Source of the DNA: Moorella sp. Hama-1
GTDB lineage: Bacteria > Bacillota > DSM-521 > Neomoorellales > Neomoorellaceae
Reading direction: 5' to 3'
Assembly: GCF_023734095.1 (NCBI RefSeq)
Contig: NZ_AP024620.1
Span: forward strand, 2,166,501-2,230,500
DNA: 64,000 bases
Below, piece after piece: positions 5,672-62,127 of this stretch; position 1 is the stretch's first letter, and every line of letters begins with the position of its first letter. The translations under genes were made by a program, and so were the position numbers. Below the pieces are notes generated by a model. It saw only the letters and a program-made list of their open reading frames with translations, had not been told where the DNA came from and ran no database searches.

Positions 5672-8299
5672 CTAACTTATTGTTTCTGTATCCGTTTCTA
5701 CAAGGGACTGCACCCTAAAATCGATGGCGCCGTGGGCGACGGTTAAAGTTAGGCTGTCCCCGGGTTTAATCTCGCCGCTGACGAGCTTCCGGCTGAGGGG
5801 CGTTTCGACCTCCTGCTGGATGACCCTTTTTAGCGGCCGCGCCCCGTAGGCCGGTTCATAGCCCTTGTTGGCCAGGTAGGTCAACACCGCCTCCTCCCAG
5901 TGCAGGCTACCCTGAAGGGTTTGCTGCAGCCTGGCCGCCAGTCGTTCCAGGAGCAGGGCGGTTATCTGGCGCAGCTGGTCCGGGCTCAAAGCCTGGAAGA
6001 CGATAATCTCATCTACCCGGTTTAAGAACTCCGGCCGGAAATGGCGGCGTACCAGGTCCAGGACGCCCTTTTTCATGGCAGTGAAATCGCCGCCCCTTTC
6101 CTGGAAGGCCAGGATCTCCTGGCTACCCAGGTTGGAGGTCATGATAATGATAGTGTTTCTAAAGTCTACCGTCCGGCCCTGGCCGTCGGTGAGGCGGCCG
6201 TCATCCAAAATCTGGAGCATGACGTTGAAGACATCGGGGTGGGCCTTCTCGATTTCATCGAAGAGGACCACACAATAGGGCTGGCGCCGGACGGCTTCCG
6301 TCAGCTGGCCGCCCTCGTCGTAACCCACATAACCCGGCGGGGCGCCGATAAGGCGGGCGACGGTGTGCTTCTCCATGTACTCCGACATATCCAGGCGGAT
6401 AATCTGGCGTTCATCGTCGAAGAGGGCCGCCGCCAGGGAGCGGGCCAGTTCCGTCTTGCCCACCCCGGTCGGTCCCAGGAAGATGAAGCTTCCCACCGGC
6501 CGGTTGGGGTCCTTCAGGCCGCTGCGAGCGCGCAGGACGGCTTCGGCCACCGCCCGGACGGCTTCATCCTGGCCGATGACCCGCCGGTGCAGCTCCTCCT
6601 CCAGGTGCAGCAGCTTCTCCTTTTCCCCTGCCAGCAATCTGGTCACCGGGATGCCGGTCCAGCGGCTGACTGTCCGGGCGATATCCTCCTCATCCACCTC
6701 TTCTTTTAACAGCCGGTTGGTCTTCTGTTTGCCGGCTAGAAGTTCTTCCTCTCCTTTGAGCCGGCGTTCCAGTTCATGCAAGCGACCGTATTTCAGTTCG
6801 GCCATGCGGTTGAGGTCATATTCTCGTTCCGCCTTTTCGATCTCCGTGCGGGTTTCCTCGATTTCCCGTTTGAGCTGCCGCACCCTGGCAATGGCCTGCT
6901 TCTCCACCTGCCACTGGGCCTTCATGGCCTCAGCCTCACTCTTCAGGTCCTGGAGTTCTTTCTCGATTCTTTGCAACCGCTCCCGGGAGGCCGGGTCCTT
7001 TTCCTTTTGCAGGGCGGCGGCCTCGATCTCCAGTTGCATCACCCGCCGGGTGATCTCGTCCAGGGCGACGGGCATGCTGTCGATTTCGGTGCGCAGGCGG
7101 GCCATGGCTTCGTCCATTAAATCGATGGCCTTGTCCGGCAAAAAGCGGTCGCTGATGTAACGATCGGCCAGGGTGGCGGCCGCCACCAGGGCGGCATCCT
7201 TGATGCGCACACCATGGTGCACTTCGTAGCGTTCCTTCAAACCTCGTAAAATGGAGATGGTATCTTCTACTGAGGGCGGTTGGACGAGAATCGGCTGGAA
7301 ACGCCGTTCCAGGGCGGCATCTTTCTCAATGTGCTGGCGATACTCGTCCAGGGTCGTCGCCCCGACGGCCCGCAGTTCACCCCGGGCGAGCATGGGTTTC
7401 AGGAGGTTGCTGGCGTCCATGGCCCCCTCGGCGGCCCCGGCGCCGACTACCGTATGCAACTCGTCAATAAAGAGGATGATGCCCCCCGCCGCCTCCTGAA
7501 CCTCCTTGAGGACCGCCTTCAGGCGCTCTTCGAACTCGCCCCGGTACTTGGCGCCGGCTACCAGGGAGCCCATATCCAGGGCGATGACGCGCTTGCCTTT
7601 CAAGCCCTCAGGGACATCGCCGGCTACAATCCGCCGCGCCAGGCCCTCGACGATGGCCGTCTTGCCCACCCCCGGCTCGCCAATTAAGACCGGATTGTTT
7701 TTGGTGCGCCGGGAGAGGATTTCCATCACCCGGCGGATCTCGTCGTCGCGGCCGATGACCGGGTCGAGCTTACCCTCCCCGGCCAGCCGGGTCAGATCGC
7801 GGCCGTAGCGTTCCAGGGCTTCATAGGTATTTTCCGGGTTGTCGCTGGTCACCCGCTGGGAGCCCCGGACGGCCCGCAGGGCCGCCAGGATGCCGTTACG
7901 GGTCACGCCCTCCCGCCGGCAGAGGTCCTTTAAGTCCCCTTCGCTTTCCTCCACTAAAGCCAGCAAAAGGTGTTCCACACTGATATAATCGTCTTTTAAT
8001 TGTTCGGCTTCCTTGGCCGCCCGGTCCAGGACCCTGGCCAGGGCCGGGCTGAGATAAAGGGAGCCCGCATCACCCGTCACCGCCGGTATCTTCTGCAGCA
8101 GGTTTTCCAGCCGGCGGCGCCATTCCCGGGTGTCTACTCCGGCCTGTTCCAGCAGGCGGGGCACCAGGCCCTCGGCCTGGTCAAGCAAGGCCAGGAAAAG
8201 GTGACCGGTAGTTACCTCTTGGTGATGCCGGCCTGCCGCCAGTTGCTGGGCTGCGGCCAGGGCTTCGCGGGATTTTTGCGTTAAACGGTTAGCGTCCAT
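5672..8299 (-). CDS. clpB: ATP-dependent disaggregase ClpB
   Basis: Hsp100 chaperone of about 875 residues that resolves aggregates together with DnaK/DnaJ. Domain order: N-terminal Clp repeat domain (1-145), first AAA module with Walker A GEPGVGKT (about 205) and Walker B FIDELH, the long middle coiled coil (about 400-530, rich in Glu/Lys/Arg) that defines ClpB rather than ClpA/C, second AAA module with GPTGVGKT (about 605) and [13 protein letters not shown], then the C-terminal D2-small domain. I choose ATG 8299, 5 bases after AGGTGA; the GTG at 8308 lies within that site. dnaJ and dnaK lie upstream on the same strand. Confidence 0.96.
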
Positions 8300-57403: not shown

Positions 57404-57432
57404 TTGCAAGAATATAAAGCCTGTGTTACAAT
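57404..57432 (+). promoter_or_regulatory. Promoter of tRNA-Leu (CAA)
   Basis: TTGCAA, 17 bp, TACAAT, 13 bp before the tRNA. It lies outside the island, so the host promoter still drives the restored tRNA. Confidence 0.8.
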
Positions 57433-57445
57433 GAAAAACGGATAC

Positions 57446-57532
57446 GCCGAAGTGGTGGAACTGGCAGACGCGCTGGACTCAAAATCCAGTGGTAGCAATA
57501 CCGTGCGGGTTCGACCCCCGCCTTCGGCACCA
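57446..57532 (+). tRNA. tRNA-Leu (CAA), island integration site
   Basis: 87 nt class II tRNA with CCA. Acceptor GCCGAAG/CTTCGGC, anticodon loop CTCAAAA, T arm GCGGG-TTCGACC-CCCGC. Its last 58 nt (57475-57532) recur at 60812-60869 with one mismatch. Confidence 0.95.
57475..57532 (+). repeat. attL-like direct repeat (tRNA-Leu 3' part)
   Basis: Begins GGACTCAAAATCCAGTGG and runs to the tRNA CCA. The same 58 bases, with T to G at the eleventh position, occur at 60812-60869. Confidence 0.9.
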
Positions 57533-58241
57533 GGAATAACAATGGTTCCAGGGTTTTGTAAATCTTGGAAATAGACATAAAGCAACCTCAGTAATGCATT
57601 TCTAATGAAGCTGCTCACCGAACACCCAGAGGAATGCGGCCAAAGTGGAGGATTGAATCCTCCAAACTTGGGGCCACGGGTCACAAAGCCAACAGCCACA
57701 ACGAATTGCGGCTTCCCACCATGCAAAAAATAGGTAGGGTCGCATCCCTGCTAATGGTGGTAAGAATTTAGTTTTTCGCTCTGTCCCTGCGTTCTCGCAG
57801 GGCTTTTTCTTCTATCAGGCCGTTCAACGTAGCTGGCGCCGCCTACAGGCCGGGGGTTAGGTGGCTGTGCAGGGCAAGAGTTATGATGATGCTGTTGTGC
57901 CCCAGTCGCTATTGCACAACCTTGGAGTGAACACCTCTAGCCAGCAGCAAGCTAACATGGGTGTACGGCAGGTCGTGTATGCCTCTTTATTTTTACAGCT
58001 CCTTTATGACATTACCATTATCACGCAGGAGTTTCCCTTGGGATGCCGAATATACTAGAAGGAATGCCTTCTACGGGCTCACAATAACCGCTGCGGCACT
58101 GGCCGTGATGGTTGTAGTTTTTTATCGCCTGCGAGGGTGTGCGCAGGGGTGGATCTGGCGCGGCCATAGTGGAAACGCCCCAGGCTGAATGCGGTTTCTG
58201 ATCGGATTCTGGCCGGGTCGGCGAGGAAGCATCGTCCGGCG
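57533..58241. other. Left, gene-poor part of the island
   Basis: No supportable gene. TGGAGGATTGAATCCTCCA (57646-57664) is a 19-bp perfect palindrome. A plus-strand terminator CCCTGCG-TTCT-CGCAGGG with CTTTTTCTT lies at 57785-57810. A 65-codon frame at 57861-58058 has no recognisable family or start signal. Confidence 0.55.
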
Positions 58242-58490
58242 CACCCGCCGTCCTTCCTCGCCACCATCATCCGGGTAGTGGACATCTATATGCGCCTAGA
58301 GGGCGGTAGCGAGGAGAAGGTGCGCTTCATCGGCATCGAGGCCCTGGAGAGCACCTCCCATATCGAGCCCTTTGATAACGAGGCCGCGGCCTACGCGAAA
58401 GTCACCTATATGAGCAGACGGTCTACCTGAAACACGTAGGTAAAAGATGGCTATACTTGTCTCACTCGCCTACAGCCGTCTATTCCAAAT
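58242..58490 (+). pseudogene. Thermonuclease (SNase-like) remnant
   Basis: ATIIRVVDIYMRLEGGSEEK then VRFIGIEALEST and IEPFDNEAAAYAKVTY follow the staphylococcal nuclease family (ATVVRVVDGDT..., VRLIGVDTPE, EPFGKEAAAY). The active-site Asp/Glu region is altered (IEALEST for VDTPET). The frame then shifts: EQTVYLKHVGKRWLYL continues the family in another frame after the stop at 58430. The C-terminal half is absent. Its composition is more GC-rich than the methylase genes, so it may be host-derived or older. Confidence 0.7.
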
Positions 58491-58566
58491 AATTTATTCG
58501 CTGGAGGGCGTGAATACGCCTTTCCATATGGGAGGTATAGACACTTTTTGAGAAGGGTGTGATTAC

Positions 58567-59205
58567 GTGAAGTCCTCTATAGAAGAGCAAATTAGAGAGT
58601 TAGCTTCGAGGTACTCAAGAGAGCTTAAGGAAAAAATTGATGAACGCCTTATGGAGATGGCGGATGATGATAAGTCCCATTATCTTATATACCATGTTTT
58701 GGGAATTACGAATGAGGAGGGGGAACTGATTGACCAATATCAAAACAAAGGACGATTTCTTTATAAATATGCTGGATCATTCTTAGAAGATGCTACTATC
58801 GCATGCTTTCTCTTTAAGTACCCTCAGGCATTGACAAAGGTTAAAATTGAAAACTTCCTCGGGAGGCGTCCAAAAACATTTGAAATCGATTGTTTGGTTG
58901 GGAAAGATGCATATGAAATCAAATGGCGGGATGCAACTACTGACGGAGATCATATAACTAAGGAACATACGCGGCTTAGGGTGATCGAAAAACATGGGTA
59001 TAAACCTATAAGGATCATGTTTTATTATCCTAACCGAGAACAAGCAATTCGTATACAAGATACACTAAAAACTCTTTATGAGGCACTAAAGGGAGAATAT
59101 TATTCAGGCAACCAAGCTTGGGAGTTCGTACATAATTATACGGACGTGGACCTAAAAGGTATCCTTACAAAAATTGCACATGACAACTTGAGTAAACGAG
59201 ATTAG
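58567..59205 (+). CDS. Type II restriction endonuclease, ApaLI-like
   Basis: 212 residues. A PD-(D/E)xK nuclease core is visible as FEIDCLVGKDAYEIKWRDAT (Asp108, Glu117, Lys119), followed by TDGDHITKEHTRLRVI. The block KWRDATTDGDHxTKEHTR is that of ApaLI-type enzymes (recognition GTGCAC), as I recall the family; the site cut here is not proven. It would cut unmethylated DNA, protected by the methylase encoded 11 bp downstream. AT-rich, unlike its neighbours, so acquired recently. GTG 58567 is the start (GAAGGG upstream). Confidence 0.8.
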   Translation: MKSSIEEQIRELASRYSRELKEKIDERLMEMADDDKSHYLIYHVLGITNEEGELIDQYQNKGRFLYKYAGSFLEDATIACFLFKYPQALTKVKIENFLGRRPKTFEIDCLVGKDAYEIKWRDATTDGDHITKEHTRLRVIEKHGYKPIRIMFYYPNREQAIRIQDTLKTLYEALKGEYYSGNQAWEFVHNYTDVDLKGILTKIAHDNLSKRD

Positions 59206-59216
59206 GGGAATCCATA

Positions 59217-60458
59217 ATGACTATACTACTCGGCGATTGCTTAAGTAAAATGGCGGGTATTGAAAGCGCAACAATAGACTTAGTATATCTTGATCCACCT
59301 TTTTTCTCTCAGAAAAACCATCGTCTTAAACCAAGGGACAATTCTAAAGAATACACATATGAAGATGTTTGGGGGTCACTTGAGGCTTACCTCTCTTTCA
59401 TGAAAGAATGCTTAATTCAGTGTAGAAGAGTCTTGAAGAATACGGGGAGTATTTTCTTGCATTGCGATAGATCAGCCTCTCACCATTTAAGGTTATTACT
59501 TGACGAAACGTTTGGAACAGACATGTTCCAAAGCGAGATTATTTGGGCATATAGACGGTGGTCAAGTAAGAAAAAGGGCTTGTTAAATTCCCATCAGACA
59601 ATCTTTTTTTATAGTAAGACTAAGGACTTCAAATTTAATACCATTTATACCGACTATTCACCAACCACGAACATTGACCAAATACTGCAAGAAAGAGAGC
59701 GAGATATTAACGGGAAATCAGTTTATAAGAGGGATGAATACGGCAACATCATTATCGGTAAGGAGAAGAAGGGTGTTCCGTTATCTGATGTTTGGTATAT
59801 TCCCTATTTGAACCCTAAAGCCAAAGAAAGAGTTGGGTACCCAACACAAAAACCAGTATTATTGCTTGAGCAAATAATAAGGATTGCCTCGGATGAAAAC
59901 GACCTTATTCTTGATCCTTTCTGTGGAAGTGGTACAACTTTGATCGCTGCAAAGCTGTTAAATCGCAGATTTATTGGTATTGACAATTCGGTAGAAGCAG
60001 TAAATCTTACCAAACATAGACTGTATAATCCAATTATCTCAAGATCGGCATATATTGAAAAGGGAGCAGATAGCTATATTGAAAAGAGTAGTATGGAGCT
60101 TGAAATCCTAAAGAGCATAAACGCGATACCTGTTCAAAGAAATAGTGGGATAGATGGGTTTTTGAAGAAACTGTATCATGGTAAACCGATATCTATTAGG
60201 TTCCAAAAAGAACACGAACCCTTACAGGAAGCCAAGAATAGATTAATTACTGCGAGTAAGGCCAAAGAGTGCGGTTTGATGATATTGTTCAGAACCAACC
60301 TTTTAGATCAGTCCACTTTCATGTCCGCTCAGAAAGAACTAGACCAAAATCTTCTGGTCATCGATAGCTATGACTTGATCATTAGAAACTGGATAAAAAA
60401 CAAATCCAAGGAACATCCGAATAATCGGTTATGTCCAAGAGCTGCTGTAAAATATTGA
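59217..60458 (+). CDS. DNA adenine/cytosine-N4 methyltransferase, beta class
   Basis: 413 residues. Catalytic motif IV DPPF (26-29) comes before the SAM motif I DPFCGSGTT (233-241) with GIDNSVEAVNLTKHR, the beta-class order; PTQKP at 209-213 is the usual motif X region. DPPF marks an amino-methyltransferase (N6-A or N4-C). A C-terminal extension of about 130 residues (from about 285) has no known domain and may be specificity or oligomer part. It protects host DNA from the endonuclease upstream. AT-rich. Confidence 0.92.
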   Translation: MTILLGDCLSKMAGIESATIDLVYLDPPFFSQKNHRLKPRDNSKEYTYEDVWGSLEAYLSFMKECLIQCRRVLKNTGSIFLHCDRSASHHLRLLLDETFGTDMFQSEIIWAYRRWSSKKKGLLNSHQTIFFYSKTKDFKFNTIYTDYSPTTNIDQILQERERDINGKSVYKRDEYGNIIIGKEKKGVPLSDVWYIPYLNPKAKERVGYPTQKPVLLLEQIIRIASDENDLILDPFCGSGTTLIAAKLLNRRFIGIDNSVEAVNLTKHRLYNPIISRSAYIEKGADSYIEKSSMELEILKSINAIPVQRNSGIDGFLKKLYHGKPISIRFQKEHEPLQEAKNRLITASKAKECGLMILFRTNLLDQSTFMSAQKELDQNLLVIDSYDLIIRNWIKNKSKEHPNNRLCPRAAVKY

Positions 60459-60811
60459 GGCCTGGTTCACACAGTGGCGTTTAATATTCATCATCGGCTG
60501 TGTACTATACTTACTATAAAAAGTGATATAGCCCCCTTTGGAGAATGGTATAGGTGGGATAAAAACCAAACCTATCAATTGGAATAAAGAAAGACTAGCT
60601 AAAAGACGGGCTGAACGTAAACAAGCGCAAAAAACAACTACCAATAGGCCGCCCCCAGGATTACTATAGTAATGCACTTCGTAATGCAGTGGGGATGAAA
60701 AAGCATTGAAAAAAGCTAAACAGCAGGGATTTATACCAGCAGCAAGGACGGAAAAGCCCGCAAAATCCGGCTTTCTTTAATTAGGCTAAACTGCCTTAAA
60801 TAAAGATTAAA
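60459..60811. other. Right end of the island, no gene
   Basis: Only a short frame NWNKERLAKRRAERKQAQ (about 60566-60640) has coding character, with no start; it may be the tail of a lost gene. AAAGCCCG / CCGGCTTT-like hairpin with T run at about 60751-60778 (plus strand). Confidence 0.45.
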
Positions 60812-60869
60812 GGACTCAAAAGCCAGTGGTAGCAATACCGTGCGGGTTCGACCCCCGCCTTCGGCACCA
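60812..60869 (+). repeat. attR-like direct repeat (displaced tRNA-Leu 3' end)
   Basis: 58 bp matching 57475-57532 except one base; contains the anticodon arm to CCA end, without the 5' half of the tRNA. It is not a functional tRNA. Confidence 0.9.
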
Positions 60870-60913
60870 AAAAAATTAATATATCCGGCGTTGGTGGTGG
60901 GATCCGCCGGAGA

Positions 60914-60966
60914 CAAAAACCCTTGGACGCTAACTAATATTAAAGGCGTTAAGGGGTTTTTCTTTT
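60914..60966 (+). terminator. Terminator of the original tRNA-Leu unit
   Basis: AAAAACCCTT...GACGCTAAC / GGCGTTAAGGGGTTTTT stem with CTTTTT tail, 45 bp after the displaced tRNA end. It fits the pre-island tRNA transcript. Confidence 0.75.
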
Positions 60967-61125
60967 TGTGGTTACCCTTGCTGGGGGTATTTCCTGCCAG
61001 GAGGATTTTCCTGCCCTTTTTCCGCCTGGAACCCCCTCCAGGTAGCTTTGCCCGCTGCCTGTCCTCCGTGATAGACTCTTAAAGGAACACTCATTGACCA
61101 CCGCTCAGGGGAGGGTCCAGTTGGT

Positions 61126-62088
61126 ATGGCTATAAAGGAAGAAGCCCTCAGGCGGCGAATAACCCCTGGATGCGCCGCCGGATCAGCCCGCCGCCTGGGT
61201 TATGCGGCTATTATCCTGGCTGCCCTCCTTTACGGGGGCAACGTCATCGCCGGCCGGGTGGTGGCGCCCCTGGTACCGCCCCTGGCCATGGCCACGGCGC
61301 GGGGGCTACTGGGCCTGCCGGTGCTGCTCTTTTTTGCCCTGAGGGCCGGGACCAGGCCCCGGCCGGCAGACCTGCCCTATATGGCCTTGATGGGCTTCCT
61401 GGGGATTAGTGTAGCCTACGGCTCCTTTGCCTGGTCCATGCAAAACAGCCCGGCGGTTAATGCCTCCATTATCTTCGCCACCTTTCCCGCCGTCACCCTA
61501 GTCCTGCTGGCCCTCGGCTGGCACGTGAAACCCAATCGTTACCAGATAGCGGGCATCATAATCGCCTTTACCGGCTTGGCCCTGGTCACCGCCCAGGGTT
61601 CCCTGGAGCGACTCCTGGCCCTGCGCTTCCAGCCGGTGGATCTGGTCCTCCTGACCAATGTTGTCGCCGCCTCCCTGTATAACATCCTGGGACAGAGGAT
61701 GGTGGAACGTTACTCGCCCGTTGTCACCAGCGCCTATTCCCTGCTCTTCGGCACCCTCTTTCTTCTCCCTGCCGGCTTCTGGGAAGTCGCCCACCAGGGC
61801 TGGTACTTGCCCCCCTCCGGCTGGCTCCTCCTTATCTATATGGGCTGTATCATTGCCGGCCTAGCCATCTTACTTAACTTCGAAGCCATCGAACGCATCG
61901 GCTGCGGCCCGGTAGCCATGTTTAACAACCTGAACCCCATCTCGGCCATCGCTCTGGCAGCCCTGCTCCTGGGGGAAAAACTGAGCTGGTACCACTGGGC
62001 CGGGATTATCCTCGTCCTGGGGGGTGTCTGCCTCTCCTTGAGGCAGCCCGGGGGGCGACAACAGGCGAAAAAAGCACACCAGCAGTAA
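61126..62088 (+). CDS. EamA/DMT family transporter
   Basis: 320 residues, ten predicted helices in two EamA repeats: IILAALLYGGNVIAGRVVAP (about 28-47) begins repeat 1, and NVVAASLYNILGQRMVERYSP begins repeat 2 (about 183); VAMFNNLNPISAIALAALLLG with EKLSWYHWAGIILVLGGV is the family ending. It exports or imports a metabolite (amino acid, purine or sugar phosphate type), identity unknown. ATG 61126 follows GGGGAGG. A strong terminator lies just after. Confidence 0.9.
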   Translation: MAIKEEALRRRITPGCAAGSARRLGYAAIILAALLYGGNVIAGRVVAPLVPPLAMATARGLLGLPVLLFFALRAGTRPRPADLPYMALMGFLGISVAYGSFAWSMQNSPAVNASIIFATFPAVTLVLLALGWHVKPNRYQIAGIIIAFTGLALVTAQGSLERLLALRFQPVDLVLLTNVVAASLYNILGQRMVERYSPVVTSAYSLLFGTLFLLPAGFWEVAHQGWYLPPSGWLLLIYMGCIIAGLAILLNFEAIERIGCGPVAMFNNLNPISAIALAALLLGEKLSWYHWAGIILVLGGVCLSLRQPGGRQQAKKAHQQ

Positions 62089-62127
62089 GGGCTTCCCCCT
62101 GGGGAAGCCCTTACTGCTGGCTGTTTT
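62079..62127. terminator. Bidirectional terminator
   Basis: CCAGCAGTAAGGGCTTCCCC (62079-62098) pairs perfectly with 62101-62120 around CT, followed by GCTGTTTTTT. It serves the EamA gene and the convergent glucanotransferase. Confidence 0.88.

Follow-up and report, generated by a model that had tools for sequence, protein, structure and literature searches.

A probable eroded integrative element with an intact ApaLI-type restriction-modification pair at the tRNA-Leu(CAA) gene of Moorella sp. Hama-1

The window analysed here is a stretch of 64,000 nucleotides of Moorella sp. Hama-1 and belongs to a complete single-contig genome of 3.32 Mb; all positions below are those of the window. Our analysis revealed a segment bounded on one side by an intact tRNA-Leu(CAA) gene, the only full gene of this kind in the genome, and on the other by a direct repeat of the 3' part of this gene (Table 1). 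About 1 kb of degraded sequence lies beside the intact tRNA, and an intact restriction-modification (R-M) pair was also found between the two copies. Upstream of the tRNA we identified a weak promoter match (57404-57432), and the hairpin that follows the partial copy is probably the original tRNA terminator. An earlier note on this DNA had described the repeat with its single mismatch, the AT-rich endonuclease and methylase genes, a dead thermonuclease gene, a promoter before the tRNA and a terminator after the partial copy, and all of these were recovered in our analysis.

Table 1. Features identified in and around the segment between the two tRNA-Leu(CAA) copies (window positions).
Feature	Position	Strand	Basis and remarks
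Intact tRNA-Leu(CAA)	57446-57532	+	ARAGORN; Rfam RF00005; left att copy is 57475-57532 (3' 58 nt)
Decayed tyrosine integrase, C-terminal catalytic part	57781-57980	-	PHROG matches, relatives, profile; beside the tRNA, convergent
Terminator-like hairpin and T-run	57785-57802	+	z -5.1; inside the element, 3' of the intact tRNA, at the former 3' end of the integrase
Probable IS256-family terminal end remnant	57981-58016	-	83% over ~40 nt to a G003 Mutator-type IS end, E 2e-5
Thermonuclease (SNase) gene fragment	~58257-58429	+	51% aa identity, E 5e-10, to a G004 SNase-domain protein
ApaLI-family type II restriction endonuclease, intact, 212 aa	58567-59205	+	PF09499; PADLOC
Cognate N6-adenine DNA methyltransferase, intact, 413 aa	59217-60458	+	PF01555; PADLOC
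IS256-family right-end remnant	60427-60493	+	83% over 70 nt to the end of a G008 Mutator-type transposase fragment, E 2e-12
Partial tRNA-Leu(CAA) copy, right att copy	60812-60869	+	58 nt, anticodon stem to CCA
Terminator-like hairpin and U-run	~60908-60968	+	-22.5 kcal/mol, z -3.9; 3' of the partial copy

The two 58-nt copies lie 3337 nt apart and agree at 57 positions. When all eight tRNAs of the window were checked, no partial copy of any of the other seven was found. Among the ten congeneric genomes searched, eight have the 58-mer once and G005 has it twice, while it is missing from G006, a genome that is only 58% complete. These two results indicate that the repeat did not arise by chance. 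At the single mismatch, the first 3' position of the anticodon stem, the right copy has G, while the left copy and all congeners having the gene have T. This G is private to the right copy and unpairs the anticodon stem, which is most readily explained by decay of a copy that has no function and is no longer under selection. The mismatch had been put forward as a test of which copy came with the island, but the base is uninformative in this respect. The variable arm reads GGTAGCAATACC in both window copies and GGCCGCGAGGCC in the congeners, and since the two copies have it in common, they cannot tell host from element in that region. The variable arm of the intact gene is thus unlike that of all congeners having the gene. 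A T:A pair in the anticodon stem, present in both window copies, is common only to G004.

Examination of the congeners, as the earlier note had suggested, showed empty sites. In G001, G002, G003, and G007, there is one tRNA, and the EamA gene that the window has past the partial copy lies at most a few hundred bases after this tRNA; these genomes are ~77-80% identical to it in the flanks and belong to species other than that of the window. In the right-flank alignment, homology is weak for the first ~100 nt past the partial copy and resumes from there on. An empty site at strain level would be expected to show one tRNA-Leu(CAA) followed directly by AAAAAATTAATATATCCGGC. In the region between the EamA gene and the opposite-strand gene, a perfect 20-nt inverted repeat with a 2-nt gap (62079-62120) is probably a bidirectional terminator.

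G005 carries a different, larger island at the same tRNA (L027 6826-14329 and L028 1-866), with unrelated cargo and an identical 58-nt distal copy. This copy starts at the same base (GGACTC, in the anticodon stem-loop), and the terminator behind it is the one found immediately after the tRNA in G003 and G007, where the site is empty. An integrase fragment, of another subfamily than the remnant in the window, lies beside the tRNA in this island, whose two contigs probably join within it. Reading of the sequence of G010 showed an integrase remnant of similar kind next to the tRNA. In G009, the genes between tRNA-Leu(CAA) and EamA (L031 5300-9856), judged from their translations, resemble a futalosine-pathway (menaquinone) cluster, and this interval has no tRNA repeat.

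The usual position of an integrase is beside the tRNA and facing it. The locus had been described as lacking an integrase, but a decayed one was identified in this position. The minus-strand translation, HDLPYTHVSLLLARGVHSKVVQ*RLGHNSIIITLALHSHLTPGL, carries a tyrosine-recombinase C-terminal motif. It matched PHROG 7685 (E 5e-8) and phrog_1 (E 5e-6), while the match to Pfam alone was not significant (E 0.15). A profile of five relatives gave 64.7 bits for the remnant against 1.7 for the best of 300 dinucleotide shuffles; as these relatives were picked by their similarity to the remnant, it is the PHROG result that serves as the independent test. The remnant is 63% identical over 60 aa to the intact 403-aa integrase beside a tRNA-Leu in G018, and past a change of frame the similarity extends as far as the C-terminus. 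The three best-scoring relatives outside this genome (52-63% identity) all adjoin tRNA-Leu genes, namely tRNA-Leu(CAG) in G018 and tRNA-Leu(TAA) in G009 and G022. Other relatives adjoin tRNA-Leu(CAA) in G019 and G015, and all five of these integrases converge on their tRNA. More distant relatives were found next to a variety of other tRNAs. Upstream of the HDL motif, the fragment GKLLRDNGNVIKEL was also considered as part of the integrase, and is more probably IS-end sequence.

The remnant shows in-frame stops, a frameshift, a change of HDLR to HDLP (Arg to Pro), and replacement of the catalytic Tyr by His. With these lesions, which include the loss of both the conserved Arg and the catalytic Tyr, the integrase is dead, which makes current excision of the island unlikely. 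Of the other integrases of this genome, the one closest to the remnant shares only ~48% identity with it over 42 aa and is encoded by a split gene. Near tRNA-Thr(CGT) of this genome (L116, ~6540-7120), the parts of a tyrosine integrase lie in two reading frames; it is probably another decayed element.

Restriction-modification pairs are a bacterial defence against viruses. The endonuclease in the segment matched RE_ApaLI (PF09499) over its full length (E 8.4e-94, profile positions 2-189 of 189) and PADLOC REase_II (E 7e-85). The methylase matched N6_N4_Mtase (PF01555, E 2.4e-55) and PADLOC MTase_II (E 2e-170, model positions 4-394 of 399). Comparison with the C-termini of homologues showed that it is complete relative to its family, although its tail is slightly altered where the final codons extend into an IS256-type end. 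The GC content of the pair is ~37-40%, against 55-68% in the flanks. The endonuclease is absent from the other 17 genomes of the family. One contig scan gave 38 relatives at 58-69% identity from very different phyla, and the methylase directly follows the endonuclease in 37 of 37 checkable loci, as it does here, so the two genes travel as a unit. No ApaLI relative was found in IMG/VR, and the sole phage match, in Tenacibaculum phages, is partial and spans 50 aa. Partial tRNA copies near tRNAs were found at none of seven other ApaLI loci checked, and no solved structure of a relative was found by sequence. As in the ApaLI family, the pair should methylate and cut GTGCAC and would protect against foreign DNA, and it is presumably expressed. 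The genome contains 51 GTGCAC sites per Mb, the lowest density in the genus (55 to ~76 in the others); the ratio to the reversed hexamer is 1.63, which is not low, as near-complete congeners range from 1.20 to 1.68.

Besides the R-M pair, which is the sole intact gene pair in the segment, the thermonuclease fragment and two IS256-type ends are recognisable. These remains indicate that the element is eroded. The G003 element matched by the left end has a transposase fragment (E 4e-5), and the transposase fragment of G008 matched by the right end has a Pfam match of E 0.0014, below the curated cut-off. The interior of the right end lies toward higher coordinates, and both outer ends face the R-M block in inverted orientation. 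No transposase was found in the segment between the tRNA copies, where only short IS end remnants were present, and an arrangement of two IS copies with a transposase flanking the cargo, as in a composite transposon, was not observed. The inverted repeat 57991-58016/60427-60452 was considered as the terminal repeat of an R-M transposon and rejected, because its orientation and relatives point to two IS256-type ends that face inward.

It is highly probable that the segment is an eroded integrative element which once had its own integrase, was inserted in tRNA-Leu(CAA), and has kept its R-M pair intact. The 3.3 kb between the tRNA copies would be the remainder of this element. Its tyrosine integrase would have recombined an attP copy of the 3' part of the tRNA with the chromosomal tRNA-Leu(CAA), and the crossover probably fell within the anticodon stem-loop. 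As a result, the tRNA at the left end would have been made whole again, while the displaced 58-nt tail, together with the old terminator, would have come to lie at the right end. Mutation and deletion would presumably then have eroded the integrase, the thermonuclease gene, and IS256-type insertions, while the ApaLI-type pair stayed intact. Integration into the 3' part of the tRNA by a tyrosine recombinase, as the earlier note had proposed, is well supported by the empty sites of the congeners, the identical boundary in G005, and the integrase remnant, whose best-scoring relatives adjoin tRNA-Leu genes. The low GC content of the R-M pair, its absence from the other 17 genomes of the family, and the recurrence of this two-gene unit in distant phyla also speak for an integrative element. 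Points against it are that the empty sites come from congeners of other species, that the immediate right flank shows weak homology, and that of the integrase only the C-terminal part is left.

A later arrival of the R-M pair in the island through IS activity is conceivable. According to this explanation, the island is older than the pair, which arrived as an IS-bracketed unit whose remains are the two IS256-type ends. Their inverted arrangement with outer ends toward the R-M block, the run of the last methylase codons into one of them, and the documented existence of IS-flanked R-M complexes (PMC3031569) all fit such an entry. However, the left end rests on ~40 nt with E 2e-5, each end matches a different IS copy, neither a transposase nor a target duplication was identified at the locus, and independent later insertions beside the R-M genes would look alike, so that the ends fit either course of events. 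We regard the later entry as a tentative possibility. It is doubtful that, in addition to an IS-bracketed arrival, the R-M pair kills cells that lose it and in this way kept the dead island in place after loss of the integrase. If both were true, the locus would document the survival of an R-M system beyond that of its carrier.

The eroded element with its own integrase also differs from what the earlier note proposed, namely a possible minimal, integrase-free mobile addiction island, with the recombinase either supplied in trans or since lost. The second part of that alternative fits best, as the remnant lies in the usual place, whereas supply in trans is very unlikely. Both att copies are nearly intact, the R-M genes are the only intact pair, and the host has other integrases, which would suit mobilisation in trans; but the element had an integrase of its own that is now dead, the only related host integrase found is the one in a split gene mentioned above, and neither this genome nor the congeners yielded a second copy of the island. 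Nothing at the locus shows mobility or addiction. That the right copy belongs to an old tandem tRNA duplication and is not an att site is hardly credible and was rejected: both copies do have variable-arm substitutions private to this genome, but the 5' half is missing exactly at the anticodon stem with no 5' tRNA remnant upstream of 60812, the congeners have a single gene, G005 has the same boundary around unrelated cargo, and an integrase remnant adjoins the tRNA.

tRNA genes are documented as attachment sites. In Escherichia coli, the tRNA-Leu gene leuX is a defence hotspot (hotspot 37) with R-M cargo (PMC12707154). The locus described here resembles it in the use of a tRNA-Leu as attachment site, a tyrosine integrase at one end, and R-M genes among the cargo, but its host is a Moorella-type Firmicute, only ~3.3 kb is left of it, its integrase is dead, and it carries an ApaLI-type II system. 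The islands of G005 (L027/L028), G009 (L111), and G018 (L110) likewise have an integrase beside the 3' end of a tRNA-Leu and converging on it, and G005 shares the same tRNA and att boundary. Their cargo is different, and G009 and G018 use tRNA-Leu(TAA) and tRNA-Leu(CAG). The segment is similar to the IS-flanked R-M complexes in having inverted IS sequences on both sides of the R-M genes, but only short end remnants are present here, with no sign of movement. Complete R-M systems are reported to transfer autonomously or in small mobile elements (PMC4176335). The locus departs in nothing from documented tRNA attachment sites, R-M cargo, R-M transfer, or IS-flanked R-M systems.

Our analysis suggests that integrase pseudogenes should be sought in islands that seem to lack an integrase before a mechanism in trans is proposed. 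It also places tRNA-Leu(CAA) among the integration sites that are used repeatedly in Moorella-type genomes. In genetic work on this host, DNA to be introduced may need methylation at GTGCAC, as predicted from the intact ApaLI-type pair.
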